Shown piece after piece: positions 25,038 to 37,085 of a stretch of DNA of 64,000 bases. The stretch's first letter is position 1. The number at the start of each line of letters is the position of its first letter. Origin of the DNA: Limosilactobacillus sp. WILCCON 0051 (GTDB taxonomy: Bacteria > Bacillota > Bacilli > Lactobacillales > Lactobacillaceae); contig NZ_CP154878.1 of NCBI RefSeq assembly GCF_039955095.1, positions 1,240,001-1,304,000 of the forward strand. Reading direction: 5' to 3'. The position numbers and the translations under genes were made by a program. The notes beneath the pieces are model-generated. The model did no database searches. It was not told the DNA's origin and was given only the letters and a program-made list of their open reading frames with translations.

Positions 25038-26231
25038 TTATCCTTTCTTTTCAGCAAGCAGTACGATGACAGCTACCAGGATCCCGATTCCTGCCATCAC
25101 CAGATCACCAGCCATAACTGCGGCCATACTGATGTCGGAAAGCATCCCGGTAATGATTGGTACCGTAAACGAGGCAATGCTGCCGAAGAAGTAGAAGACG
25201 CCAGTAATCATGCCGCGGTGCGTTGGGTAAAGCTTCATGAAGATCGTCAGGCCGGTCTGCATGATTCCGCTGGCCGCGCTGAAACCGAATGCGAACGAGG
25301 CAATCTGCATCATAAGGAGCTGTCCGCTTTGCATGATCACCAACAGGGCTGCTAGGGCAATTGCGTTTACGATCAGCAGCAGGCGCGATTCCTTAACGTT
25401 GCGTCCCAATAAGGCAAACAGTACCAAAACCCCAGTGATTGAGCCGATACTGTAAAGCGAAAGCAAGAAATGGGCCGCGCTATCTGACATGTGCATCGTC
25501 TGCTGAGCAAACATCGTGATCCATTGCGTAAACCAGATCATCAGAGCCATTGAAGAGTAGCCGTACACAACCAGCGCGCCAGTCATGACTTTTTTGGCAA
25601 CTCCTTTGATCTCAGATTCCTGCTCATTAACGGCACTGCCATCAGCTTGATTGGCAGCTGGGAACTTAAGCGGCAGAATCAGACAGAAGTTGATTGCCAG
25701 CAAAATGACCATTGCCATGAAGCTCCAGCCAAACCACATTCCTTGACCAGCCAGAATCGTAACCAGAATTGGCAGAATGAATTCGCCAACGGAAACGAAG
25801 GCCTTGATCAGAATCGTGTAGGCTCCGTTGCCGCCATTCATTTCAACAAAAGTCGTGTAAGTACCGGCATCAAGCGATGAATTGGCGACCCCCGCCAGGA
25901 TGGCAAAGAAGTAGGCAATCCAGATGTTTTTCGCCATTGGCATGCCAAGCGCAAATACCGCGTAGCAGAACATCCCTAATTCAACGAAAAACTTGCGGCT
26001 GATCTTGTCCGACAAAAAGCCGGTAATCAGGTATGAGATCAAGCGGCCAATCCCGATCCCCGAAATTACGAAGGAAACGATTTTGATGGGTTGATTCCAG
26101 GCCGTTCCTAGACTGTTCATGTTTTGCGCCAAAATAATCAATCCCATTCCGTGTACCAGGTAGTTGAGGTACAGGCTGACGGAAAGACGTCTTTTAGCAG
26201 TTGTATCGATCTGATTTTTTGCAATCTCCAT
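25038..26231 (-). CDS. MFS transporter heading the aromatic operon
   Basis: This 397-residue carrier has about 12 membrane segments, an A-loop-like LSDKISRKFF and a central hydrophilic loop around residues 195-215. As first gene after an aromatic attenuator, and joined to the shikimate-pathway genes, it probably moves an aromatic precursor or product (shikimate, quinate or an aromatic amino acid). That is inference from position only. Confidence 0.85.
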   Translation of the reverse strand: MEIAKNQIDTTAKRRLSVSLYLNYLVHGMGLIILAQNMNSLGTAWNQPIKIVSFVISGIGIGRLISYLITGFLSDKISRKFFVELGMFCYAVFALGMPMAKNIWIAYFFAILAGVANSSLDAGTYTTFVEMNGGNGAYTILIKAFVSVGEFILPILVTILAGQGMWFGWSFMAMVILLAINFCLILPLKFPAANQADGSAVNEQESEIKGVAKKVMTGALVVYGYSSMALMIWFTQWITMFAQQTMHMSDSAAHFLLSLYSIGSITGVLVLFALLGRNVKESRLLLIVNAIALAALLVIMQSGQLLMMQIASFAFGFSAASGIMQTGLTIFMKLYPTHRGMITGVFYFFGSIASFTVPIITGMLSDISMAAVMAGDLVMAGIGILVAVIVLLAEKKG

Positions 26232-26256
26232 AAATAATCCCCCTTAGTCAGGTACT

Positions 26257-26305
26257 AAAAAAAGTCAGCCAGTTTTGAGACGTCTGCCTCATCAATCCAG
26301 CTGAC
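26257..26305 (-). terminator. Attenuator terminator before the aromatic operon
   Basis: GTCAGC (26305-26300) pairs with GCTGAC (26269-26264). An inner TGAGG...CTCA adds pairing, and seven T follow at 26263-26257. It stands only 26 bp before the first gene, so readthrough must be regulated. Confidence 0.85.
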
Positions 26306-26372
26306 CTTCTGCACAATACTTTTTATGAAGGGATGTACTTAAGGTTGGTTATTTAAAGAAGAAGTAAGCTTC

Positions 26373-26462
26373 GTCTTTGCTGGATTTAGAGTTGCCCGGC
26401 AAAGACGCGCCAAAATGCGACTCTGCTCAAGCGCTGAACGTCTCGCGTTCGCGCTTGAGCAG
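26373..26462 (-). promoter_or_regulatory. Leader RNA hairpins between the aromatic leader peptide and the terminator
   Basis: Stem A is CTGCTCAAGCGC/GCGCTTGAGCAG (12 bp, 26462-26451 with 26434-26423), extended past a bulge by CGAAC/GTTCG-type pairing. Stem B is GTCTTTGC/GCAAAGAC (26406-26399 with 26380-26373). Both lie directly after the leader peptide and are candidates for pause, protector and antiterminator functions. Confidence 0.65.
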
Positions 26463-26470
26463 CACGAACG

Positions 26471-26536
26471 CTATCCGAAAGCATAATAAGCAAAGCCGAA
26501 ATAAAACGCTGGTCGATTTTGGCATTGAAGTTTCAT
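26471..26536 (-). CDS. Phe/Tyr-rich leader peptide of the aromatic operon (21 residues)
   Basis: GAAAGGAGAA precedes ATG 26536. The peptide begins MKLQCQNRPA and continues FYFGFAYYAFG, with seven Phe or Tyr among residues 11-20, then TAG. It lies about 27 nt after the predicted transcription start and is followed by large hairpins and an operon-proximal terminator. This is the layout of ribosome-mediated attenuation as in enterobacterial pheA. Stalling at these codons under Phe/Tyr shortage would be expected to favour antitermination. Confidence 0.82.
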   Translation of the reverse strand: MKLQCQNRPAFYFGFAYYAFG

Positions 26537-26569
26537 GATAACTTCTCCTTTCAATAATTTGTTGCTAAT

Positions 26570-26598
26570 ATTAAAACACTCTAATCTTATCTCGTCAA
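26570..26598 (-). promoter_or_regulatory. Promoter of the aromatic operon
   Basis: -35 TTGACG (26598-26593), a 17-bp spacer and -10 TTTAAT (26575-26570) predict a start near 26563. An inverted repeat TCAACCT / AGGTTGA (26595-26601 and 26615-26621) overlaps the -35 and may be an operator. Confidence 0.65.
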
Positions 26599-26688
26599 CC
26601 TCTAATCATAAAAAAGGTTGATTATTTTTGATCTCTTGATATTTTAGTCTTTTTAAACAAATAAACAGTGGCAAATTCTCATTTTCGA

Positions 26689-27552
26689 CTAATCAATTAC
26701 CTGAACGCCTTCCGTATCAGGTTCAATTTCCAATAATGGATCACTAAGTCCGGCCTGTAAAAGCAGCTGCTTAAACCGCGGAATCCCCTGTTTATCGATA
26801 ATCGTCATGACGGTCGGACCCGCGCCGCTTAAATAGGTCGCCAGCGCACCGGCTTCATGACCGATTTCGCGAATCTTGGCCAGTTCCGGTACGAGCTTGG
26901 CACGCGGCTGTTCGTGAAACTCGTCAGCCTCCATCAGTTCACCAACCAGATCATAGCGATTGGCAAACAGGCCGGCTACCAAAACGTTGGCAATCGCGCT
27001 GCCATGCGTTGCCTGTTTTAATGTCAGGCTGGCTGGCAGGGCCGCTCTGGCATCAGCAGTCTTTAGATTATATGACGGCACATAGGCAGCCAGCGCGTAA
27101 GGAAGCAATGGCGCCTGAATAGCATCGAAATGACCGTTAACGTTGGTACCAATCACCAGGCCGCCTAAGATTGCCGGTGCGACGTTATCGGGATGGCCCT
27201 CGATCTCGCAGGCAATCGCTACTTTTTCATCATTGCTCAACTGCAGCTTGCCCAAGACATTGGCCAGTTCAATCCCAGCAACAATGGCACTGGAACTGCT
27301 GCCCAGACCATGAGCTACTGGAATGGCCGACTGCATTTTCAAATGATGCGGCGGCAGGTCGGCTTTGATTTTTAATGCCGTATCGATGATCATATTGGAC
27401 TGGTCATGCGGCAGATCGTCAAAGTCGTGATCGATAACCCATTCGTCGCTGGGTTCAAGTACGTCCAGCGTAAGGTAAAGCGAAACAGCCATCCCAATTG
27501 AATCAAATCCCGGTCCCAGATTGGCACTGGAAGCTGGTACCTTGATCTGCAT
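26689..27552 (-). CDS. thrB: Homoserine kinase
   Basis: This 287-residue GHMP kinase phosphorylates homoserine. The first motif PASSANLGPGFDSIG is at about 5-19, the ATP loop is PVAHGLGSSSSAIVAG (about 85), and motif 3 is LSGAGPTV. ATG 27558 is too close to AGGGGGA, so ATG 27552 seven bases further is chosen. It is 11 bp after hom. Confidence 0.94.
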   Translation of the reverse strand: MQIKVPASSANLGPGFDSIGMAVSLYLTLDVLEPSDEWVIDHDFDDLPHDQSNMIIDTALKIKADLPPHHLKMQSAIPVAHGLGSSSSAIVAGIELANVLGKLQLSNDEKVAIACEIEGHPDNVAPAILGGLVIGTNVNGHFDAIQAPLLPYALAAYVPSYNLKTADARAALPASLTLKQATHGSAIANVLVAGLFANRYDLVGELMEADEFHEQPRAKLVPELAKIREIGHEAGALATYLSGAGPTVMTIIDKQGIPRFKQLLLQAGLSDPLLEIEPDTEGVQVID

Positions 27553-27563
27553 AATCATTCCCC

Positions 27564-28847
27564 CTAGTTTTCCAAAACCTTGTAAGCCGCATTAAGCTTA
27601 ATCGAGTCGGCCTGCTGCAGTTGTTTTTTGAGCTCCGCCAATTGACTTTGTGACAGCTCGTGCGTGATTACGGCTACATGAGCAATGCCTTCATCCTTGA
27701 TTGGTGCCTGCACGATTTGACTGAAACTGGCTTTGATATCAGCCATGATCCTGGTAAATTTAAGCATCTGTCCAGAAACGTCCGGCATCGTCAATGAAAG
27801 ATAGTAAGGGTAGCGCACGTTGTCGGGATCAGCTGGCACGTATTCGCTTTGATAGGTATTAAACGCGTGGCCGCTGGTACCCATGATCAGATTCTTAACC
27901 TCTGAAGTAATGTCGCTCAAGACACTGTTGGCAGTTGGCAGACCACCGGCACCTGGCCCATAAAACAGCGTGTCCCCAACGGCCTTGCCAGTAACCATAA
28001 CGGCATTGAATTCATTGTTGATCGTTGCCAGTGGATGATCTTCTGGAACCAGGGTCGGCGCTACATCAACGAACACGCCGCCATTGATGACCTTGGCTGA
28101 GCCGACCAGCTTGATAACGTAGCCTAGTGACTCGGCTTGGCTGACGTCATAGGCATTCAGAGTATCGATTCCTTCCGTTTTGAAATCATCAATCCTAAGC
28201 TGTGCTCCAAAGGCAAAATAGCTCAGAATGATCATTTTGTAAGCCGCGTCCTTACCCGTTACGTCGTTGGTTGGATCGGCCTCGGCAAAGCCCAGCTCCT
28301 GTGCTTTTTTCAGTGCTTCTTCATAGGTCCAGTGCTTTTGATTCATCTGAGTCAGGATATAGTTGGTCGTACCATTAACGATTCCTTTGACCTCAAGAAT
28401 ATTGTCAGCCGCAAAACTATTGACGATCGTGCGCAGAATCGGGATCCCGCCTGCCACGCTGGCTTCATACATCAGATCACAGTGATTCTCATAAGCCAAC
28501 GCTGCCAGTTCCGGACCATATGATGCAATCAGGTCTTTGTTGGCAGTTACCACGTTTTTATGTGCTTTTAGCAGTCGCTCAATATACTCTTTGGCAGGAT
28601 GAATCCCCCCAATCAGCTCAACGACGATCTGAATTTCTTCATCGTTAAGCACTTCTTCAAATTCAGTCGTCAGCTTGGTAACCGTGGCCGCGTTTTGATG
28701 CTTTTCTGGATGACGAACCACGACCGTCTTGACTGACAGTTCGCGACCAATAATATTGCGAATCTTGTTCTCGTTGTTTTCAATCATTTCCAAAACGCCA
28801 GAGCCGACAGTCCCCAGCCCCAGCATTCCCAGTTTGACAGTTTCCAT
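27564..28847 (-). CDS. hom: Homoserine dehydrogenase
   Basis: The protein has 427 residues. The NAD(P)-binding GLGTVGSGV (about 10) is followed by the catalytic-domain segment KGIVNGTTNYIL and EADPTNDV. A C-terminal ACT domain begins around residue 350 (YPYYLSLTMPDVSGQM) and gives threonine feedback in this family. The frame is open to 28916, but METVKLGM at 28847 after GGAG is the family start. It heads hom-thrB, divergent from thrC. Confidence 0.94.
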   Translation of the reverse strand: METVKLGMLGLGTVGSGVLEMIENNENKIRNIIGRELSVKTVVVRHPEKHQNAATVTKLTTEFEEVLNDEEIQIVVELIGGIHPAKEYIERLLKAHKNVVTANKDLIASYGPELAALAYENHCDLMYEASVAGGIPILRTIVNSFAADNILEVKGIVNGTTNYILTQMNQKHWTYEEALKKAQELGFAEADPTNDVTGKDAAYKMIILSYFAFGAQLRIDDFKTEGIDTLNAYDVSQAESLGYVIKLVGSAKVINGGVFVDVAPTLVPEDHPLATINNEFNAVMVTGKAVGDTLFYGPGAGGLPTANSVLSDITSEVKNLIMGTSGHAFNTYQSEYVPADPDNVRYPYYLSLTMPDVSGQMLKFTRIMADIKASFSQIVQAPIKDEGIAHVAVITHELSQSQLAELKKQLQQADSIKLNAAYKVLEN

Positions 28848-28977
28848 AGCGCTGCTCCATTCTCTGTAGTTTTTAATTAAATTTTCATATTTATGATTGT
28901 AACATGGACTATCCATAGGCTACAATATTTAAAAGAATTCTACCAAACCACTACTGTATTAAGAATGGAGGATCACA

Positions 28978-30471
28978 ATGAACTATCGCAGTACGCGTGG
29001 TAATGTTAAAGATGCATTAAAATCTAGTGACGCCGTTGTTCAAGGACTGGCTCCGGATGGCGGATTGTACGTTCCGGTTGACTTTCCCAAACCAGCGTAC
29101 GATCTGGAAAAATTGATCCAGCTGCCCTATCAGAAACTGGCGCAGACAATCCTGCAATGGTTTTTTAACGATTATCCTGAAGATCAGCTGGCTGATGGCA
29201 CAACCAAGGCCTACGCCAACCAATGGGATAACGATTCAATCGCACCATTAAGCAAACAAAAAGCCGGTTTTAACTATCTGGAGCTATATCATGGCCCGAC
29301 CCTGGCTTTCAAGGATATTGCCCTGCAGATGCTGCCGCAGTTAATGACCAAAGCAATCAAGCTCAATGGCGTTGATCGCGACATCGTAATCCTGACCGCT
29401 ACTTCTGGCGATACCGGTACGGCTTCTATGCGCGGCTTTTCCAATGTTGATGGCACGCAGGTAATCGTCTTTTATCCAGATGGCGGGGTCAGTCCAGTTC
29501 AGCTAAAGCAGATGCTTGGGCAGCCGGGGCAAAACCTTACCGCTGTGGCTGTTAAGGGGAATTTTGATGATGCCCAGACTGAAGTCAAGCATATCTTTAA
29601 CGACCAGGCCTTTAACCAGCGCTTGATTGACAATGGCTACCAGTTCTCCTCCGCCAACTCGATGAACATCGGCCGGCTGATTCCACAGGTTGTCTACTAT
29701 TTCGCCGCTTATGGTCAGCTGGTTGAACAAGGCCGGATCAAGCTTGGCGATGCGATCAACTTCACCGTGCCAACTGGGAACTTTGGCGACATTCTGGCCG
29801 GCTGGTACGCCAAGAAACTGGGACTGCCAATCAAAAAGCTGATCTGCGCCTCAAACGAAAACAACGTCCTGACTGATTTCTTCACTACTGGCAAATATGA
29901 TCGGCGGCGCGATTTTCATCTAACCTCCGCGCCCGCTATGGATATTCTGGTTTCCAGCAATCTGGAACGGCTTTTGTTTGACGTTTATGATGAAGATGCT
30001 GCCAGCGTTAAGGAATTAATGGAACGGCTGCAAAATGATGGCTGGTATCAGATCACTGCTGCCGCCAAAGCCAAGCTGGATTCCGAATTTGCGGCTGGTT
30101 ACGCTACGCAGAGCCAAGTCGCGGGTGAGATTAAATATGTCTATGAAACCAGCGGCTATTTGATTGATCCGCATACCGCCGTGGGATCATTTGTCGCTCG
30201 TCAATATCAAAAGAACAGTGATGATCAGACGCCAATGGTTATCGTTTCAACCGCCAGCCCATATAAATTCCCAGAAACCGTCTATCATGCTTTGACTGGC
30301 CAGGATACTCAACAGCAAGGTCTGCCATCCATCAAACAGCTGCATGATCTGGTCGGTGGCGAATTAACGGCTGGAGTCAAGGAACTGTTTGATCATCAGC
30401 CGCGCAAAGAATCCGTAATCGCACCTGATGAAATGGAAAACTTGATTGCCCAAGTCTTAAAATTGAAATAA
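28978..30471 (+). CDS. thrC: Threonine synthase
   Basis: This 497-residue PLP enzyme is of the long (yeast/E. coli) class. The PLP lysine lies in GPTLAFKDIA, and TATSGDTGTA binds phosphate. It converts O-phosphohomoserine, made by the divergently transcribed hom-thrB, into threonine. GGAGG precedes ATG 28978. Confidence 0.95.
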   Translation: MNYRSTRGNVKDALKSSDAVVQGLAPDGGLYVPVDFPKPAYDLEKLIQLPYQKLAQTILQWFFNDYPEDQLADGTTKAYANQWDNDSIAPLSKQKAGFNYLELYHGPTLAFKDIALQMLPQLMTKAIKLNGVDRDIVILTATSGDTGTASMRGFSNVDGTQVIVFYPDGGVSPVQLKQMLGQPGQNLTAVAVKGNFDDAQTEVKHIFNDQAFNQRLIDNGYQFSSANSMNIGRLIPQVVYYFAAYGQLVEQGRIKLGDAINFTVPTGNFGDILAGWYAKKLGLPIKKLICASNENNVLTDFFTTGKYDRRRDFHLTSAPAMDILVSSNLERLLFDVYDEDAASVKELMERLQNDGWYQITAAAKAKLDSEFAAGYATQSQVAGEIKYVYETSGYLIDPHTAVGSFVARQYQKNSDDQTPMVIVSTASPYKFPETVYHALTGQDTQQQGLPSIKQLHDLVGGELTAGVKELFDHQPRKESVIAPDEMENLIAQVLKLK

Positions 30472-30477
30472 ACGTTT

Positions 30478-30513
30478 GCCCTGATTGGAGTTGCCTTCAA
30501 TTGGGGCTTTTTA
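30478..30513 (+). terminator. thrC terminator
   Basis: GCCCTGATTGGAG pairs with CTTCAATTGGGGC along 13 positions with G-U pairs, followed by TTTTTAT. Confidence 0.85.
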
Positions 30514-30651
30514 TTGCTGTAATCTATAACACCATCAAAGCTATGTCGCTGGGCGGTTTATCAATTAAGCCTCCTCAATTGTCCAATTAGATTGTTCGAT
30601 TGCGGGCGTTATGCAAGATATACTGCATATCAACACATGAAGAAAAAGTCA

Positions 30652-30919
30652 TTACCTACTTTTCGCAAAAATCAATGTATAAGTAGGTAAAAAGCAATGT
30701 ATATCGAGTTAGGGATCCCCAACATTACCTACGATCGATCGAAAATTCAATAATAGTAGGTAATTCACAAAGTCGGTCTGACCCAATCACCCTCAAAATA
30801 TTCATCTTTACCTACGATTTCGGAAAAAGGCATCATAAGTAGGTAAAGTTATGTGAGCCGAAATATACACTCACCCTCATTTACCTACTCTTAGCTAAAA
30901 AACCGTGCCAAGTAGGTAA
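30652..30919. repeat. Helically phased array of eight TTACCTAC octamers in alternating orientation
   Basis: Forward TTACCTAC starts at 30652, 30725, 30808 and 30881. Reverse GTAGGTAA starts at 30683, 30756, 30839 and 30912. Intervals are 31, 42, 31, 52, 31, 42 and 31 bp, that is about 3, 4, 3, 5, 3, 4 and 3 helical turns, and the whole set has a dyad at 30785.5. Each pair is a 39-bp unit with a 23-bp interior of unlike sequence sharing only an A-run. It lies in a 794-bp stretch (30472-31265) without any gene; apart from the thrC terminator I see nothing else there. Confidence 0.9.
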
Positions 30920-31265
30920 TCTATCCCTCGAATGCCGTTCAAGGATTGCTTTTCTTCACAAGGTTATCGTTCACCACGTTTCTAATCAGCGTCAATATCG
31001 CTAAACTTTAGTCGTCGATATGAATCTTGATTAATTGATGACTGCTGCGTTTTTGATAGTGTGCGGCAATAATTAATTGACAACGAATAGGGATTGGATT
31101 ATTTGGTTGATTTTCTATAAGTTGTTAGTTAAGGTAAATTTATACTGTTATGTAAGGGGTAGCTAAACCAGGATCACTGCTCTTGCCGATTCTACTGCCT
31201 TGCAATATTAAAAGCGCCACCAAGCCCAATTGCTTAGTGACGCTTAACCTAATGATTGATTGGTT

Positions 31266-31784
31266 TTATTTTTCCGATTTAGCCAGCTTGGCAATCGCCT
31301 GAACCGTTTGACGATCTTTAGCCGTACCGTAAAACTCAGCTTCTCGTCTGGCATTGAGCTGCTTGACCAGTTCTCTGATTTCATGGTTTTGAGCCAGCTT
31401 GCGCGTTGGCAGCGGAATAAATGCATTGGCGGCAATAATGGCCATCACTACCCCAATGATCCGGGCGCCATAAAAAGAAACGTTCAAAAACAGAATCGTT
31501 ACCGCGGCCACGGCGAACAGTACCGTGTTGAAGTATAGCGGCCAGTGCGGATTGTGCCGCTGCTTTTGGCCCAGATTAAAATGCAGATCGTATTTTTCAC
31601 AGGCCAGCTTGGCATAGGAATTCAGCTTATTCCAATAAAATGCCAGACCAACCAGCGCGAGCATCCCTAACAGATTCAGCAGATTTGCGCCGACTACACC
31701 GCGAAGCCCCCAAAAGATCAGACCAGTAGCTAAAGTTGCGGCATACCCAGCCATGAAAGGATGGCGGACAGAAAATTTTTGCAT
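31266..31784 (-). CDS. Small multi-pass membrane protein of unknown function
   Basis: The protein has 172 residues. Two hydrophobic segments (about 15-50) are followed by a basic loop, then two more (about 85-125), and a cytoplasmic charged tail (LVKQLNARREAEFYGTAKDR). ATG 31784 follows GGGAGG; an upstream in-frame start lacks a ribosome site. I do not recognise the family. It lies between the phased repeat array and the T-box. Confidence 0.75.
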   Translation of the reverse strand: MQKFSVRHPFMAGYAATLATGLIFWGLRGVVGANLLNLLGMLALVGLAFYWNKLNSYAKLACEKYDLHFNLGQKQRHNPHWPLYFNTVLFAVAAVTILFLNVSFYGARIIGVVMAIIAANAFIPLPTRKLAQNHEIRELVKQLNARREAEFYGTAKDRQTVQAIAKLAKSEK

Positions 31785-31957
31785 TTTAGTGCCTCCCAGA
31801 TTTTGATTGACTTTATTATAAAGCCCTTTCAATATTTGAGCAAGCGTTTGCACAAAAACAACATCATTTTTGCCCTGCTTAAATTAATTTACTGGGACCG
31901 CTTGACAAATTAACGATCTGTTTCTAAAATGAGCTTATATTTAAATAATGAAAAGTT

Positions 31958-32182
31958 AGTGAGAATAGTAGCCGCTTTTTCTAATCTTAGCGAGCGTGGT
32001 CTGGTGCAAGCACGCATTGGCAGACACGGCGAAATGAACTCATTGTTAAATGGAACGGGTGCAAGCTACGTCCCCGGCTGATTACCGTTATCAATCATGG
32101 AGGTCATTGTTATGCAATGGCAAACCAAGGTGGTACAGCGAACACAAACGCCCTTGAGCAGCCGGCTCAGGGGCGTTTTTTT
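31958..32182 (+). promoter_or_regulatory. T-box riboswitch, probably tRNA-Met specific
   Basis: The T-box sequence AACCAAGGTGGTACAGCG is at 32123-32140, with TGGT to pair with an ACCA tRNA end. The specifier region shows AGTA (31967-31970) next to GCCG, and opposite it CGGC-GAA-ATG-A (32027-32037). The codon after GAA is ATG at 32034-32036. The outer stem is AGTGAG/CTCATT. The terminator stem ACGCCC..GAGC/GCTC..GGGCGT with seven T ends at 32182, 20 nt before the coding start. Leu (CTC at 32039) is the less likely reading because those bases form the stem. Confidence 0.85.
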
Positions 32183-32201
32183 AATGAAAGGATGAAAGAA
32201 T

Positions 32202-33281
32202 ATGCGAATCAACGCGGAAGATGAACGCAGCTATCTACAAAACGTTTTTGACAAATTGGGCTTTCAAAAAGAGGATGGCGCCTTGATTGCTGATACGCTG
32301 GTTGATGCTGACCTGCGTGGAATCTCCTCACATGGGATCCAAAGACTATACTGGTATCGCAGCATGATCAACGACGGCATCATCGTACCCCAAAATCATG
32401 CCAAGGTTTTAAAAGAGCTGCCTGGCGCCGTTTTAGTCGATGCCAACCAAAACATGGGTCATCTGGCAGCCAGCCTGGCAATGGATAAAGTAATTGAAAA
32501 GGCTAAGCAGATTGGGGTCGGCATCGGGGTCGTTCGCAACTCCAACCACTTCGGTATTGCCGGCTACTACGTTCGCAAGGCACTGGCTGCGGGGCTGTCT
32601 GGGATTGCCCTGACCAACACGCGGCCGCTGGTAGTACCAACCAATGCCACGGAAGCGTTTCTGGGATCAAATGCCTTTGCGTTTGGCTTCCCGGCCTCAC
32701 CACATCCTTTCATTTTTGACGGGGCTACTTCCGTGGTTGCTGGCGGCAAGATTCAGCTGGCGGACAAAAAAGGCATTGAGCTGCCCGGTGACTGGGTCGT
32801 TGACAAGAATCGTCAAGTCGTCAAGGATCCAAAAGAAGCAGAAAGCATCCTGGCAACCGCGGCCTTTGAAGAAGAACAAAAAGGCGGCGGCCTCTTGACG
32901 CTGGGCGGCAGTGAGATCAACTCCAACTACAAGGGCATGGGCAACTCGATTGTCGTTGAGATTCTGACCGGTATTTTGGCACAGGGATCCATTTCGGCCG
33001 ACACCAACACGGGCAAGCACGACTTTAGTCAGTTCGTCTTTGCTTTTGATCCAGCGTTCTTCGGTGATGTCGAAACGCTTAAAGCCAACGCAACCAGCAT
33101 GTTCGATCGAATTCGCCACCTTAATCACGTTCCCGGCAAGACGATCTGGGTTCCAGGTGATCGCGAATACAAGAACCTGGCTGAAAATCAAAAGCATGGC
33201 GTTGACATTGATGCCAAGACGATTGAACAGATGCAGGAAATCGCCGCTGACTTACAGATTGAGATGCCCGCTGAAGTTTAG
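32202..33281 (+). CDS. Ldh2/MDH2-family NAD(P)-dependent 2-hydroxyacid dehydrogenase
   Basis: The 359-residue protein matches the Ldh2 family (malate, sulfolactate and ureidoglycolate dehydrogenases) with DADLRGISSHGIQRL (about 31-45), RNSNHFGIAGYY (about 110) and ALTNTRPLV. This family is unrelated to classical L-LDH. The Met-type T-box makes a role with a methionine-related 2-oxo or 2-hydroxy acid (for example 2-oxo-4-methylthiobutanoate) attractive but unproven. AAAGGATG precedes ATG 32202. Confidence 0.88.
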   Translation: MRINAEDERSYLQNVFDKLGFQKEDGALIADTLVDADLRGISSHGIQRLYWYRSMINDGIIVPQNHAKVLKELPGAVLVDANQNMGHLAASLAMDKVIEKAKQIGVGIGVVRNSNHFGIAGYYVRKALAAGLSGIALTNTRPLVVPTNATEAFLGSNAFAFGFPASPHPFIFDGATSVVAGGKIQLADKKGIELPGDWVVDKNRQVVKDPKEAESILATAAFEEEQKGGGLLTLGGSEINSNYKGMGNSIVVEILTGILAQGSISADTNTGKHDFSQFVFAFDPAFFGDVETLKANATSMFDRIRHLNHVPGKTIWVPGDREYKNLAENQKHGVDIDAKTIEQMQEIAADLQIEMPAEV

Positions 33282-33291
33282 GATAAACAAC

Positions 33292-33325
33292 AAAGCCGCC
33301 ACGGAATTTACCGTGACGGCTTTTA
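33292..33325. terminator. Terminator after the Ldh2-family gene
   Basis: AAAGCCG-CACGG and CCGTG-CGGCTTTT pair around AATTTA. It may also serve the convergent esterase gene. Confidence 0.85.
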
Positions 33326-33381
33326 TGATGCCCTCAAACCGCTATGACCAGTGGCAATAAAATCAGCCGCAGCCATTAAAA

Positions 33382-34500
33382 TCATTTACCGTAACCAAAC
33401 TGGCTTAATTTTTGCATGATTGCCTGCGCTGCAACCATTCCCCCAGCCGCGTTCAAGTGCAGATGATCGCCAAAATCATAAATCTCTTTAAGACCACCAT
33501 CGCTATCAAGCAGCCATGGATCAAGATCAATGACCCACTCAAACCGTCGCAGTTCCTGGTTGATCAAAAGCCGCCGCTGCTGAGCATCAAGCAGCACGTT
33601 TTCTTGTTGTGGAGCCACGTGCGGTGAAAATGGCGGAATCGTTGTCAGAATCAACGGGCACCGCCGATCATCCAAGATTTGCTTTAGTCGACTGACCCCG
33701 GCTAGATATTGACCCGATGTTACCAGCTCATGCGCCGACTGACCGTCAATCAGCGGCAAAACCAGATCGTTGCTGCCAATCAGGGCAATAACTGGATGCG
33801 GACGCGAATCGGTTGACTGGGCGACTCTTTTAATCAGCGACTCACCAAACGTCTGATACAGCGGACCATCTTGCGGAGCATCATGAAGCAGCCGATTACC
33901 CGAGATGCCTGTGTTGACTACCACAGCCTGATTTAAAAGCTGCTTAATCAGTCCAGTTTCAATCATTCCCGTTTCTGCCAGGGAGTCGCCGGTCAGCTCA
34001 ATGATCGGCGTTTTTTTATCCGTCCAAACCTCTAAACAGCTGATGGAAAACCAGCCTTTGCGTGCCTGCCAGTTATGCGGCAAATGCGGCGCGGCGTTCT
34101 TAGTTCCGGCCATGATCGCGTTATAAAACGTTTCGTCATAGACACAGCTGAAATCGGCATAGGTCTGTTTTTGCGACGCCCGCATCCTAAAATAAAGCGG
34201 CTGACCGGCAACGACTTCAAACGGCAGCGCGTCCGTATGCACTGCCCCGTTACCGACAATGGCAATCTGCTTTTGCTGGCCACGAGTAATTGATTTTGCA
34301 TCGCTCATCTTTTCATCATGGCTGACGGTAAGCTCATCAAAAAACAGCGTCGCATCATTAAAACGGTTTTGCAGAATCAAACGCAGACCACTGCCGTCGA
34401 CTTGAGGCGTAATCTTGATCAGCGAAGTGAGTTCCTTCATCTTAAAAGGCAGCGCGCTGAAATCATGGGTCAAGCGGCTGCTGGCGATCTGCCATCCCAT
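33382..34500 (-). CDS. SGNH/GDSL-type hydrolase
   Basis: The protein has 372 residues. About 1-165 is a beta-rich N-terminal domain. The SGNH domain follows with block I ELTGDSLAETG, block II GISGNRLL, block III IGSNDLV and the C-terminal Asp/His in DHLHLNAAG. It is an esterase or deacetylase, probably on a carbohydrate. No signal peptide is visible, so it acts in the cytoplasm. The N-terminal domain is probably a carbohydrate-recognition or jelly-roll domain; this is inferred. Confidence 0.85.
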   Translation of the reverse strand: MGWQIASSRLTHDFSALPFKMKELTSLIKITPQVDGSGLRLILQNRFNDATLFFDELTVSHDEKMSDAKSITRGQQKQIAIVGNGAVHTDALPFEVVAGQPLYFRMRASQKQTYADFSCVYDETFYNAIMAGTKNAAPHLPHNWQARKGWFSISCLEVWTDKKTPIIELTGDSLAETGMIETGLIKQLLNQAVVVNTGISGNRLLHDAPQDGPLYQTFGESLIKRVAQSTDSRPHPVIALIGSNDLVLPLIDGQSAHELVTSGQYLAGVSRLKQILDDRRCPLILTTIPPFSPHVAPQQENVLLDAQQRRLLINQELRRFEWVIDLDPWLLDSDGGLKEIYDFGDHLHLNAAGGMVAAQAIMQKLSQFGYGK

Positions 34501-34530
34501 CTGGCCACCTTCTTTCTAATTTATTGCCAT

Positions 34531-34560
34531 AAAAAAGGCCGACGCTGTAATACGCCGGTC
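34531..34560 (-). terminator. Terminator of the pdh-lplA operon
   Basis: GACCGGCG and CGTCGGCC (one mismatch) form a stem followed on the minus strand by six T, downstream of lplA. Confidence 0.78.
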
Positions 34561-34634
34561 TTTTGCCTGCCGACCAATGACTGCCTGATCATCGCTTTAA
34601 GGCGTTGAAAAGCAGTCGCTGGGTGCTGGAAATT

Positions 34635-35654
34635 TTAATGCTGCTTGGTCAGCAGGTTGATAACAGCCTCGGGATCAATCCCAACAAAGTAGCGTTTCAG
34701 ATCAAGCTTGGCCAGTGCCTGCTGCATGGCATCCTGATCATAAGGCTGCCCGATCAAGGCGTTTTGGACATCGGCTACGTCACCGGTACCAAAGAAATCG
34801 CCATAGATCTTCAAGTCATTGATGCGGCCATCTTCAACCAGGAAACGGGCATCAATGGTTCCGCCATCGAAATGCTGCCGTTTTTTAACTGAGAACTTTG
34901 GTGACTTGCCATATACCCAGTCCCAATTATCGTAGTAGCGTTTTTCCAATTCAGAAATCGCTGCTTCATCTTCAGGCGTCAGCTGATATTCAAACTGCTT
35001 GGCCTTCTCGACCGAATCGACATGCCAGATGCGTTTGATCAATTCATCTCTAAACTGCTGCGTCGTCAGATTTTGAAATTCCGGCTTAAGGTATGGCTTA
35101 ACGTTGGTAACTCGCGCCCGTACCGATTTGATGCCTTTTGACTCGATTTTGTCTTTTGGGACGTGCAATGCAGAAGCAACCGCGCTGGTATCAACGTCAT
35201 ACATCAGCGTCCCGTGTGAAAAGGTCCGGCCGTTGCGCGTGTACATGGCATTGCCAGAAAATTTCTTGCCATCAATTACAATGTCGTTGCGTCCAGTGGT
35301 TTCCGCCCCGGTTGCGCCCATGTCATGCAGTGCATCAACGATTGGCTTGACCAGGTCCTTAAAGTCGCCGAATCGAATCTCATCGGCAGGAACGACAAAA
35401 CTAAAGCACATGTTGCCCAGATCCTGATACATCGCGCCGCCACCCGACAGACGCCGCGTAATCGTAATATCATGTTCACGACAGTACTCGGCATTGATTT
35501 CTTCCATCGTGTTTTGATTGCGTCCCACGATAATGCAAGGCTTTTCGATATAAAACAGCATAAATGGCAGCTTCATTTTGTCGCTGTTCATCAGATACTG
35601 CTCAGTTGCCAGATTGCGACGGATATCCTCACTAGGCATTGCTAAATATTGCAT
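34635..35654 (-). CDS. lplA: Lipoate-protein ligase
   Basis: The 339-residue protein attaches free lipoate to the E2 subunit of the pyruvate dehydrogenase encoded upstream. RRLSGGGAMYQDLGN (about 70) is the lipoyl-AMP loop, KFSGNAMYTRNGR contains the catalytic Lys, and there is a C-terminal accessory domain. It is the last gene of the pdh operon, 27 bp after lpd. Scavenging lipoate fits the usual lipoate auxotrophy of lactobacilli. Confidence 0.93.
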   Translation of the reverse strand: MQYLAMPSEDIRRNLATEQYLMNSDKMKLPFMLFYIEKPCIIVGRNQNTMEEINAEYCREHDITITRRLSGGGAMYQDLGNMCFSFVVPADEIRFGDFKDLVKPIVDALHDMGATGAETTGRNDIVIDGKKFSGNAMYTRNGRTFSHGTLMYDVDTSAVASALHVPKDKIESKGIKSVRARVTNVKPYLKPEFQNLTTQQFRDELIKRIWHVDSVEKAKQFEYQLTPEDEAAISELEKRYYDNWDWVYGKSPKFSVKKRQHFDGGTIDARFLVEDGRINDLKIYGDFFGTGDVADVQNALIGQPYDQDAMQQALAKLDLKRYFVGIDPEAVINLLTKQH

Positions 35655-35681
35655 TCGACACCACTGTTCCCTTCATCCAAT

Positions 35682-37085
35682 TTAAATATTGGTTGGCATT
35701 CCAAGGCCGACATCAGCAGCATCCATCAATGTTTCTGAAAGAGTTGGGTGCGGATGAATCGTCAATGCAATGTCATCAATCTCATTTCCTGATTCGATTG
35801 CCAAAGTCAGCTCACTGATCAGATCTGAAGCATCCGGCCCCACGATCTGAGCACCGACCATGACATGCGTGTCCTTCATAAATACCAGCCGGACAAAGCC
35901 TTCCGTTGCCTTCATGGATACGGCCCGACCATTAGCCATGAATGGGAACTTGGCAGTCTTGACGTCCAATCCCTTTTCTTTTGCCTCAGATTCAGTCAGC
36001 CCAGTCGTGGCAATCTCATTGTCAAGATAGCAGACAGCCGGCATTGCGTGGTAGTCGACGGTTGTTGGCTTGCCAGAGATTGCTTCGGCAGCGACCTTGC
36101 CTTCATAGCTGGCCTTGTGTGCTAACGCGGCACCAGCAACGATATCGCCAATCGCAAAGATGTTCTTGACGCTGGTTCGTCCTTGCGCGTCAACCTCGAT
36201 TAAGCCGCGTTTGTCAAGCTTGATGCCGGCTTGTTCAAGGCCCATGTCTTTAGTGTTGGGACGCCGGCCGACGGAAACGACGACATAATCGGCAGCCACC
36301 GTATGTTCTTGGTCGCCAACGGCATAGGTAACCTTTACGCCATCTTCGGTTTGTTCAGCCTGCTTAGCCATGGCACTGGTAATCACGTCAATTCCCTTAG
36401 CCTTAAAGTCTTTAAGTGCAACCTTGACCAGATCGGGTTCATAGTTGCCCAGAATCGACTTGGTACCTTCCAGAATCGTAACGTGTGCTCCAAAGTTGGC
36501 ATAGGCATTGGCTAATTCGCTGCCAATGTAGCCTCCGCCAATAATGACCAATTCCTTTGGCACTTCCTTTAAAGCCAGCGCGCCGGTTGAATCCAGAACG
36601 CGACCTTCAAACTTAAAGCCTGGAATTTCAATTGGATGACTGCCCATTGCCAAGATCAGATGCTTAAACGTGTAGGTCTGACCATGCTGATCATTGATAA
36701 CGCGCAGGCTGTGGTCGTTTTTGAGATAAGCCGTTCCCTTGATCAATTCAATCTTGTGCTCTTTGAACAGGAAACCAACCCCATTGGTCATGCGCTTTAC
36801 GACGCTGTTCTTAAATGCCTGAACCTTTTCAAAATCAAGCTTGGCATCGCTGACTTCAACGCCTTGATCAGCTGAGTTCTTGGCCGTTTGATAGTTATGG
36901 CCAACCTGAATCAAAGCCTTTGATGGAATACAGCCGACATTTAAGCAAACACCGCCAAGATAGGTACTTTCCACTACGGCAACCTTTTGTCCCATTTCGG
37001 CAGCGTGAACGGCAGCAACATAGCCGCCAGGGCCCGCGCCAACTACGATGGTATCCAAATCAATTGCAAAATCACCAACAACCAT
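35682..37085 (-). CDS. pdhD: Dihydrolipoyl dehydrogenase (E3)
   Basis: The protein has 467 residues. The FAD motif VVGAGPGGYVAAVHA, redox disulfide CLNVGC in GGVCLNVGCIPSK, NAD motif IIGGGYIGSELANAY and C-terminal HPHPTLSE catalytic His-Glu pair are present. It reoxidises the dihydrolipoyl arm of PdhC with NAD+. It starts 6 bp after the pdhC stop. Confidence 0.95.
   Translation of the reverse strand: MVVGDFAIDLDTIVVGAGPGGYVAAVHAAEMGQKVAVVESTYLGGVCLNVGCIPSKALIQVGHNYQTAKNSADQGVEVSDAKLDFEKVQAFKNSVVKRMTNGVGFLFKEHKIELIKGTAYLKNDHSLRVINDQHGQTYTFKHLILAMGSHPIEIPGFKFEGRVLDSTGALALKEVPKELVIIGGGYIGSELANAYANFGAHVTILEGTKSILGNYEPDLVKVALKDFKAKGIDVITSAMAKQAEQTEDGVKVTYAVGDQEHTVAADYVVVSVGRRPNTKDMGLEQAGIKLDKRGLIEVDAQGRTSVKNIFAIGDIVAGAALAHKASYEGKVAAEAISGKPTTVDYHAMPAVCYLDNEIATTGLTESEAKEKGLDVKTAKFPFMANGRAVSMKATEGFVRLVFMKDTHVMVGAQIVGPDASDLISELTLAIESGNEIDDIALTIHPHPTLSETLMDAADVGLGMPTNI

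Follow-up and report, generated by a model that had tools for sequence, protein, structure and literature searches.

A dispersed family of helically phased octamer arrays in Limosilactobacillus sp. WILCCON 0051 and its probable partner, a PD-(D/E)XK-like nuclease

Among described systems of dispersed bacterial repeats, the nearest to the one discussed here are the repetitive extragenic palindromic (REP) sequences, their REPIN forms, and the REP-associated tyrosine transposases (RAYTs). As set out in the parts of PMC8049555 and PMC3733652 available to us, a dedicated gene is flanked by repeats, dispersed dependents occur elsewhere in the genome, and genomes that lack the gene have fewer repeats; Firmicutes, Lactobacillus and Clostridium are not mentioned in that part of PMC3733652. 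Here, we analyse an array of eight octamers in a 64,000-nucleotide stretch, hereafter the window, of the chromosome of Limosilactobacillus sp. WILCCON 0051 (NZ_CP154878.1, positions 1,240,001 to 1,304,000, forward strand). With a probability of roughly 0.6, this array is one copy of a dispersed element of about 350 bp that functions through eight half-sites for a single dedicated protein, most likely a nuclease encoded beside a related array in the same genome. On our best reading, such arrays would be binding sites of this nuclease, forming a dispersed population comparable to REPIN/RAYT with another enzyme at its centre.

The resemblance to REP/REPIN-RAYT extends to a dedicated chromosomal gene flanked by repeats, many dispersed, extragenic, gene-less copies, a short conserved word arranged in inverted pairs, and a lower number of repeats in the absence of the gene. 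The enzymes, however, differ: RAYTs are Y1/HUH tyrosine transposases, whereas the protein here is a PD-(D/E)XK-like nuclease, as indicated by the lack of a Pfam match, by PADLOC matches, an invariant E-D-E set and a nuclease-like protein model. The repeats differ as well. REPs and REPINs are short stem-loops tagged GTAG (or CGTC), whereas the arrays described here consist of 5 to 34 helically phased 7-9-mers that alternate in orientation about 30 bp apart; the half-sites of one unit are separated by 23 bp, and motifs such as CACCGCC, TACGGCTA and TCGGTAA lack the GTAG tag. Since neither the HUH transposase nor the tagged hairpin, the two features that define REPIN/RAYT, was found, we rate the nuclease-array system as a distinct kind whose mechanism we infer, with REPIN/RAYT as the nearest known arrangement, alike in outline.

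In the window, the octamer TTACCTAC starts at 30652, 30725, 30808 and 30881, and GTAGGTAA, the same site in the opposite orientation, at 30683, 30756, 30839 and 30912, giving start-to-start intervals of 31, 42, 31, 52, 31, 42 and 31 bp. The sites form four TTACCTAC-N23-GTAGGTAA units on the + strand (30652..30690, 30725..30763, 30808..30846 and 30881..30919), each with an interior of exactly 23 bp. Nine occurrences of either octamer are present in the window, against a mean of 0.41 and a maximum of 3 in 100 shuffles. A consensus of 46 copies, placed by eye on the window sequence, extends the element to 30609..30961 (+), from a left-end inverted repeat (TTATGCA...TGCATA, 30609..30629, +, a copy of the consensus TTATGCAAAAAATCCTGCATAA) through the eight sites to a conserved right-end motif (GATT..TTTTCTTCACAA, 30944..30961, +). 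Both end features are common to the copies, and the ends 30609 and 30961 are the limits of this conservation, not proven insertion ends. The positions, orientations and intervals given in an initial annotation of the window are confirmed, as is its description of interiors constant in length and drifting in sequence.

That annotation had also described a single mirror-symmetric array, which is accurate for the window and does not hold in general. Exact TTACCTAC-N23-GTAGGTAA units number 148 in the host genome (2.36 Mb, one contig), compared with 0 for a reversed-pattern control, and lie mostly in 8-site arrays, so that a random scatter of octamers is excluded. At least 47 arrays were counted from stretches fetched around listed unit positions, and a few late ones may be uncounted. 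Among 39 complete arrays, the commonest layout is directional (31-42-31-52-31-31-31, in 24), mirror symmetry occurs in three, and the exact intervals of the window recur in two. Linkers differ between arrays mostly by about one helical turn (31/42, 42/52, 52/62). Furthermore, the phasing of the sites gives a mean vector length of 0.80-0.81 at periods of 10.25-10.5 bp, which does not exceed 0.30 at any of nine further periods examined in the range 9.5-12 bp; the placement of sites on one face of the helix, noted earlier for the window, thus extends to the family.

Between copies, the octamers are nearly invariant, and the interiors differ. Intact octamers occupy 317 of 368 positions in 46 arrays, five of which are split by an insertion sequence (IS), and 278 of 312 in the 39 arrays with eight recognisable sites, where identity between copies is 94-100% in octamer columns and 57-65% in interiors. 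The fixed helical phase together with drifting interiors supports the protein-DNA complex suggested by the initial annotation. The conserved element ends, the age of those arrays that are common to L. mucosae, and an activity still undemonstrated would also be compatible with inert, MITE-like (miniature inverted-repeat transposable element) remains of a lost transposon, next to which the nuclease gene stands by chance. This explanation is nevertheless very unlikely, as the octamers are conserved far above the interiors and the same protein family accompanies arrays with differing motifs across several phyla.

The distribution of the unit is patchy. It was found in 3 of 50 genomes of the genus, namely the host, L. 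mucosae DSM 13345 (G026; 28 units) and Lactobacillus sp. MRS-253-APC-2B (G032; 1 unit), being absent from the other 47, and in 3 of 396 Lactobacillaceae genomes; the two relatives were recognised by unit coordinates identical to those in the named genomes. Across the array flanks, identity to L. mucosae DSM 13345, to which the host chromosome is close, is mostly 91-97%, in support of a Limosilactobacillus host. A scan of named genomes returned 67 stretches with the unit. Some tens of single unit matches could, by our estimate, be due to chance (257 billion bases over 4^16), and we therefore place weight on repeated sites and not on the match count. Eight loci of unrelated hosts have single matches only. 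Most loci of Lachnospiraceae, Oscillospiraceae/Ruminococcaceae and Treponema carry further octamers in alternating orientation. Their spacing is mostly 31-33 bp; linkers of 42 or 52 bp, as in the host genome, occur at some of these loci, and at some a gap of about 150 bp separates two units.

Near-invariant, helically phased sites at tens of places could serve the organisation of the host chromosome, the arrays acting as dispersed nucleoid or division-placement sites kept for host benefit and the nuclease-like protein mainly as an architectural DNA-binding factor. Chromosome-organisation sites of the parS/Noc type are bound by a ParB-like protein and lie by the origin or terminus. The placement of the arrays is indeed non-random: a 626-kb stretch of the host genome (136-762 kb) is array-free, a gap so large in 1 of 20,000 random placements, and 24 of 46 arrays lie between convergent ORFs (open reading frames of at least 120 aa), with 20 in tandem and 2 in divergent contexts. 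This role is nonetheless unlikely, given that the unit is missing from most genomes of the genus and the gene is found in 2 of 396 Lactobacillaceae genomes, that the gap lies at neither the origin (dnaA at 301) nor the skew switch near 1.2 Mb, and that the acidic catalytic residues of the protein are invariant. Likewise, a single special locus, such as the centromere-like, loading or replication-control site put forward initially, is not supported, because the copies are many and intergenic, most of the genus has none, and they probably act with a nuclease, relatives of which accompany other motifs.

The nuclease came to light through a check, proposed with the initial annotation, of unit count and spacing near one gene family. 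When the ORFs of 75 array loci (39 in other hosts, 36 in the host genome) were clustered without prior assumption, one uncharacterised protein family spanned six host groups and stood beside arrays in each. Its only array-associated gene in the host genome (G000 C1:1994689-1995498, 269 aa) ends 161 bp from an array that carries the TTACCTAC/GTAGGTAA octamer and lies 3' of the gene. This gene is single-copy, while other hosts have up to 13 matches per genome. A conserved partner gene was considered and rejected, since no gene family is found next to the nuclease at more than 5 of the 71 loci.

The 269-aa protein has no Pfam or NCBIfam match over the cut-off and no sequence relative in the PDB. 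Its model combines an N-terminal coiled-coil/three-strand region with a C-terminal PD-(D/E)XK-like nuclease domain, in which the core strands and helices are present and for which TnsA and I-Bth0305I are the best nuclease matches. E160, D191 and E206 are invariant in 87 sequences, and such conservation of acidic residues on an alpha-beta core is a mark of the PD-(D/E)XK superfamily. The catalytic lysine typical of that superfamily would stand two positions beyond the second acidic residue, where K never occurs in these sequences; H207 and K158, both invariant, could stand in for it. The PADLOC profiles PDC-S68 (E 1.2e-23) and HEAT_CxxC_PDDEXK (E 7.6e-6) match the protein of the host genome. 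Relatives number 1345 at E<=0.001, and the few names given among the matches listed are all hypothetical protein. Five plasmid records match the nuclease end alone, covering no more than 52% of the protein. A faecal phage record of 4.2 kb, which is unannotated, aligns with 89% of the protein. An AP2-like fold of the N-terminal sheet, such as integrase arm-binding domains have, was set aside as a guess after Foldseek and VIA gave generic coiled-coil matches.

A model of the gene gave 91 matches. Of 20 genomes with multi-site arrays, 18 contained it, as did none of seven genomes with a single unit match (an eighth such genome, L045, lay outside the test). The flanks of the best 68 of these matches and of the host's own gene were scanned over 900 bp per side for inverted 7-mers 18-56 bp apart, with a threshold of at least five sites (shuffle maximum 4, 30 shuffles per flank). 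Arrays were detected beside 32 of these 69 loci, in Lachnospiraceae, Oscillospiraceae, Treponema and the host genome; some loci are mutual orthologues, so that they do not all count independently, and the calls at L150, L180, L181 and L197 are weaker. Control tiles of the same 900-bp length were drawn from these genomes to lack the TACCTAC core, and 1 of 190 contained an array. That passing tile holds 12 sites of a further motif, GCAGTTA/TAACTGC with 30/34 spacing (L028:4899-5282), and its genome has four nuclease matches.

The motifs beside the genes are diverse, including GTAGGTAA, TGTAGGTC, GTAAGTAA, TACGTA, CACCGCC, TACGGCTA, ACCGTCC, TCGGTAA and AACGTAT. The layout is kept across them, with inverted sites about 30 bp apart and common periods near 52, 62, 74 and 84 bp, apart from irregular exceptions (e.g. 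L163 and L205). The 69-locus sample is biased in that its genomes were originally chosen for TTACCTAC arrays, and the rest of the Lactobacillaceae offers an independent test: the gene occurs in 2 of 396 genomes, the host and lactobacillus G106, and both G106 genes have arrays, one of 8 GTAGAACA sites and one of 16 TACGGGCA sites. Each genome has its own unit, G106 with 41 GTAGAACA units on 10 contigs and no TTACCTAC units, and the host the reverse, with no GTAGAACA units.

The array lies 5' of the gene in 25 of the 32 array-bearing loci, 3' in 8 and on both sides in 1. This preference, together with the resemblance of the nuclease domain to the C-terminus of the candidate defence protein PDC-S68, might suggest that the arrays are operators of the nuclease gene and the solo arrays decoys restraining the enzyme until foreign DNA appears. 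However, the array in the host genome is 3' of the gene, no gene family accompanies the nuclease consistently, the PDC-S68 profiles span about 1200 aa with the match confined to the nuclease end, and an operator needs no dozens of decoys; we regard autoregulation or defence as quite unlikely.

The gene is not found everywhere that arrays occur. No match to the gene model was obtained in L. mucosae DSM 13345 or strain MRS-253-APC-2B, and a protein search of the former, a draft assembly in which a gene may be missed, likewise did not find it. The orthologous locus in L. mucosae holds other DNA, 96.6% identical over 5.5 kb to G032, and for this reason a replacement of the gene region is possible. 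Over 16 array sites common to both genomes, L. mucosae DSM 13345 has 56 intact octamers and the host 112, with fewer in L. mucosae at 15 sites and equal numbers at one; 12 of the 16 sites were fetched for an exact unit kept in L. mucosae, a bias against a difference, and all 16 were chosen from the host's arrays, a bias for one. Between orthologue pairs, 7 of 424 octamer positions, 91 of 1452 interior positions and 467 of 7725 flank positions differ. We do not use this comparison as proof of selection on octamers because of biased sampling: octamers were taken only if intact in the host, most L. mucosae loci were fetched for an intact unit, and the counts include one pair two times.

A mechanism can be proposed for the favoured reading, that of dispersed sites for a dedicated nuclease. 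The N-terminal coiled-coil/three-strand part would read the octamer, dimers would bridge inverted octamers about three turns apart, and the near-whole-turn spacings would align the dimers on one DNA face into a single complex. The C-terminal domain would then nick or cut the bound DNA or a target, whereby the sequence might be copied to new places or maintained. A full element would be the gene plus its array, and solo arrays such as that of the window would be gene-less copies that depend on the gene and decay where it is lost. Array architecture, dispersal, the gene-array linkage in several phyla with different motifs and the invariant acidic residues are read directly from sequence comparison. 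Several points count against this reading. Binding, oligomerisation, cleavage and copying or spread are steps that we infer. The scan detected no array at 37 of the 69 gene loci, and the gene was not found in two array-bearing genomes, G435 and G442 (both metagenome-assembled). Conservation of octamers within the genome could reflect selection at each copying event and not the present-day function of each copy. Moreover, the motif is not predictable from overall protein similarity, as a comparison indicated for the 32 array calls after dropping L150, L180, L181 and L197 (weak or palindromic) and then two near-identical orthologues.

Arrays of many core words beside nuclease genes in several phyla point to an unrecognised kind of enzyme-plus-repeat system in gut bacteria, with an undescribed nuclease family. 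Tentatively, and at slightly less than even odds, the arrays may represent a class of chromosomal systems, selfish or domesticated, that is so far undescribed and in which a stand-alone PD-(D/E)XK nuclease recognises its own diversified octamer, assembles on phased arrays and seeds array copies genome-wide. If true, this would add an enzymatic route to dispersed bacterial repeats besides HUH and DDE transposases, and several paralogues of different specificity would act side by side in one cell. An enzyme that spreads its sites would constitute a new mechanism for dispersed repeats in bacteria, and one that organises or guards the chromosome a new use of a restriction-type nuclease. An unnamed protein family is linked to its DNA target, in many cases readable beside the gene, and natural enzyme-site pairs with different motifs make the function testable. 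Additionally, the array geometry suggests cooperative assembly on one face, and L. mucosae, where the gene was not found and arrays are shrinking, offers a natural experiment.

Other known systems are further removed. TnsA of Tn7 and I-Bth0305I are 7 and 12% identical to the protein, which, unlike them, has its own N-terminal domain and multi-copy phased arrays; unlike in Tn7, partner transposase or ATPase genes do not recur. A transposon end was rejected on the lack of Tn7-type partner genes, the conservation of octamers above interiors and the linkage to different motifs. PDC-S68 and HEAT_CxxC_PDDEXK, both PADLOC candidate defence proteins, share a homologous nuclease end, but the similarity is limited to about 100 residues at the end of each profile (about 1200 and 290 positions), and arrays do not feature in those models. 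Like CRISPR, the arrays are regular and combine short constant with variable parts; unlike CRISPR, the constant words are 8 bp and alternate in orientation, and the interiors are related between copies and are not unique spacers, in agreement with the initial annotation. DnaA boxes were also rejected, the arrays being dispersed, the interiors lacking the rest of the box and the motifs of relatives being unrelated; in the part of PMC10316083 available, DnaABox-named oligonucleotides of the Thermotoga maritima origin contain the octamer. A phage or plasmid origin of the array was dismissed after searches gave no plasmid match, two short and weak phage matches, and no three-site octamer pattern in viral contigs. 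Searches of open-licence literature yielded nothing on L. mucosae repeats, a nuclease-repeat link or PDC-S68, and the repeats spoken of in the accessible part of the L. ruminis genome paper are CRISPR repeats (PMC3231920).

The window array occupies the spacer between two convergent ORFs. On its left is a 497-aa gene (28978..30471, +), presumably threonine synthase (thrC) by its family, followed by a terminator-like hairpin (30478..30507, +); on its right is a 195-aa ORF (31266..31853, -) with its own terminator-like hairpin (31212..31245, -). The inverted 8-mers could pair in RNA as transcribed stem-loops, but an RNA element is extremely improbable, as the array sits between the two hairpins, Rfam gave no match at gathering threshold in window positions 26000-36000, and phasing at about 10.5 bp belongs to double-stranded DNA. 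No tRNA was found at 29000-33000. Further right, at 31929-32200, the gene at 32202 is preceded by a leader with a GGTGGTAC-like core and a terminator; it resembles a T-box leader, but Rfam gave no match to it at gathering threshold.

Variation among the host's arrays is also apparent. Those at 136030, 832705 and 1995660 have linkers unlike the main type and are perhaps a second subfamily; one of them is the gene-linked array, and that at 832705 is absent from L. mucosae. At two candidate empty sites, the flanks are rearranged and a clear target duplication was not seen. A two-ORF element of about 1544 bp, which we take to be an IS of the IS3 family, is inserted in both orientations in the linkers of 6 of 47 arrays (L093, L095, L105, L106, L113 and L121, at 762, 867, 1394, 1483, 1801 and 2147 kb of the host genome). 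A sequence similar to it abuts an array remnant at L129 in G032, and the arrays may be a target of this IS.
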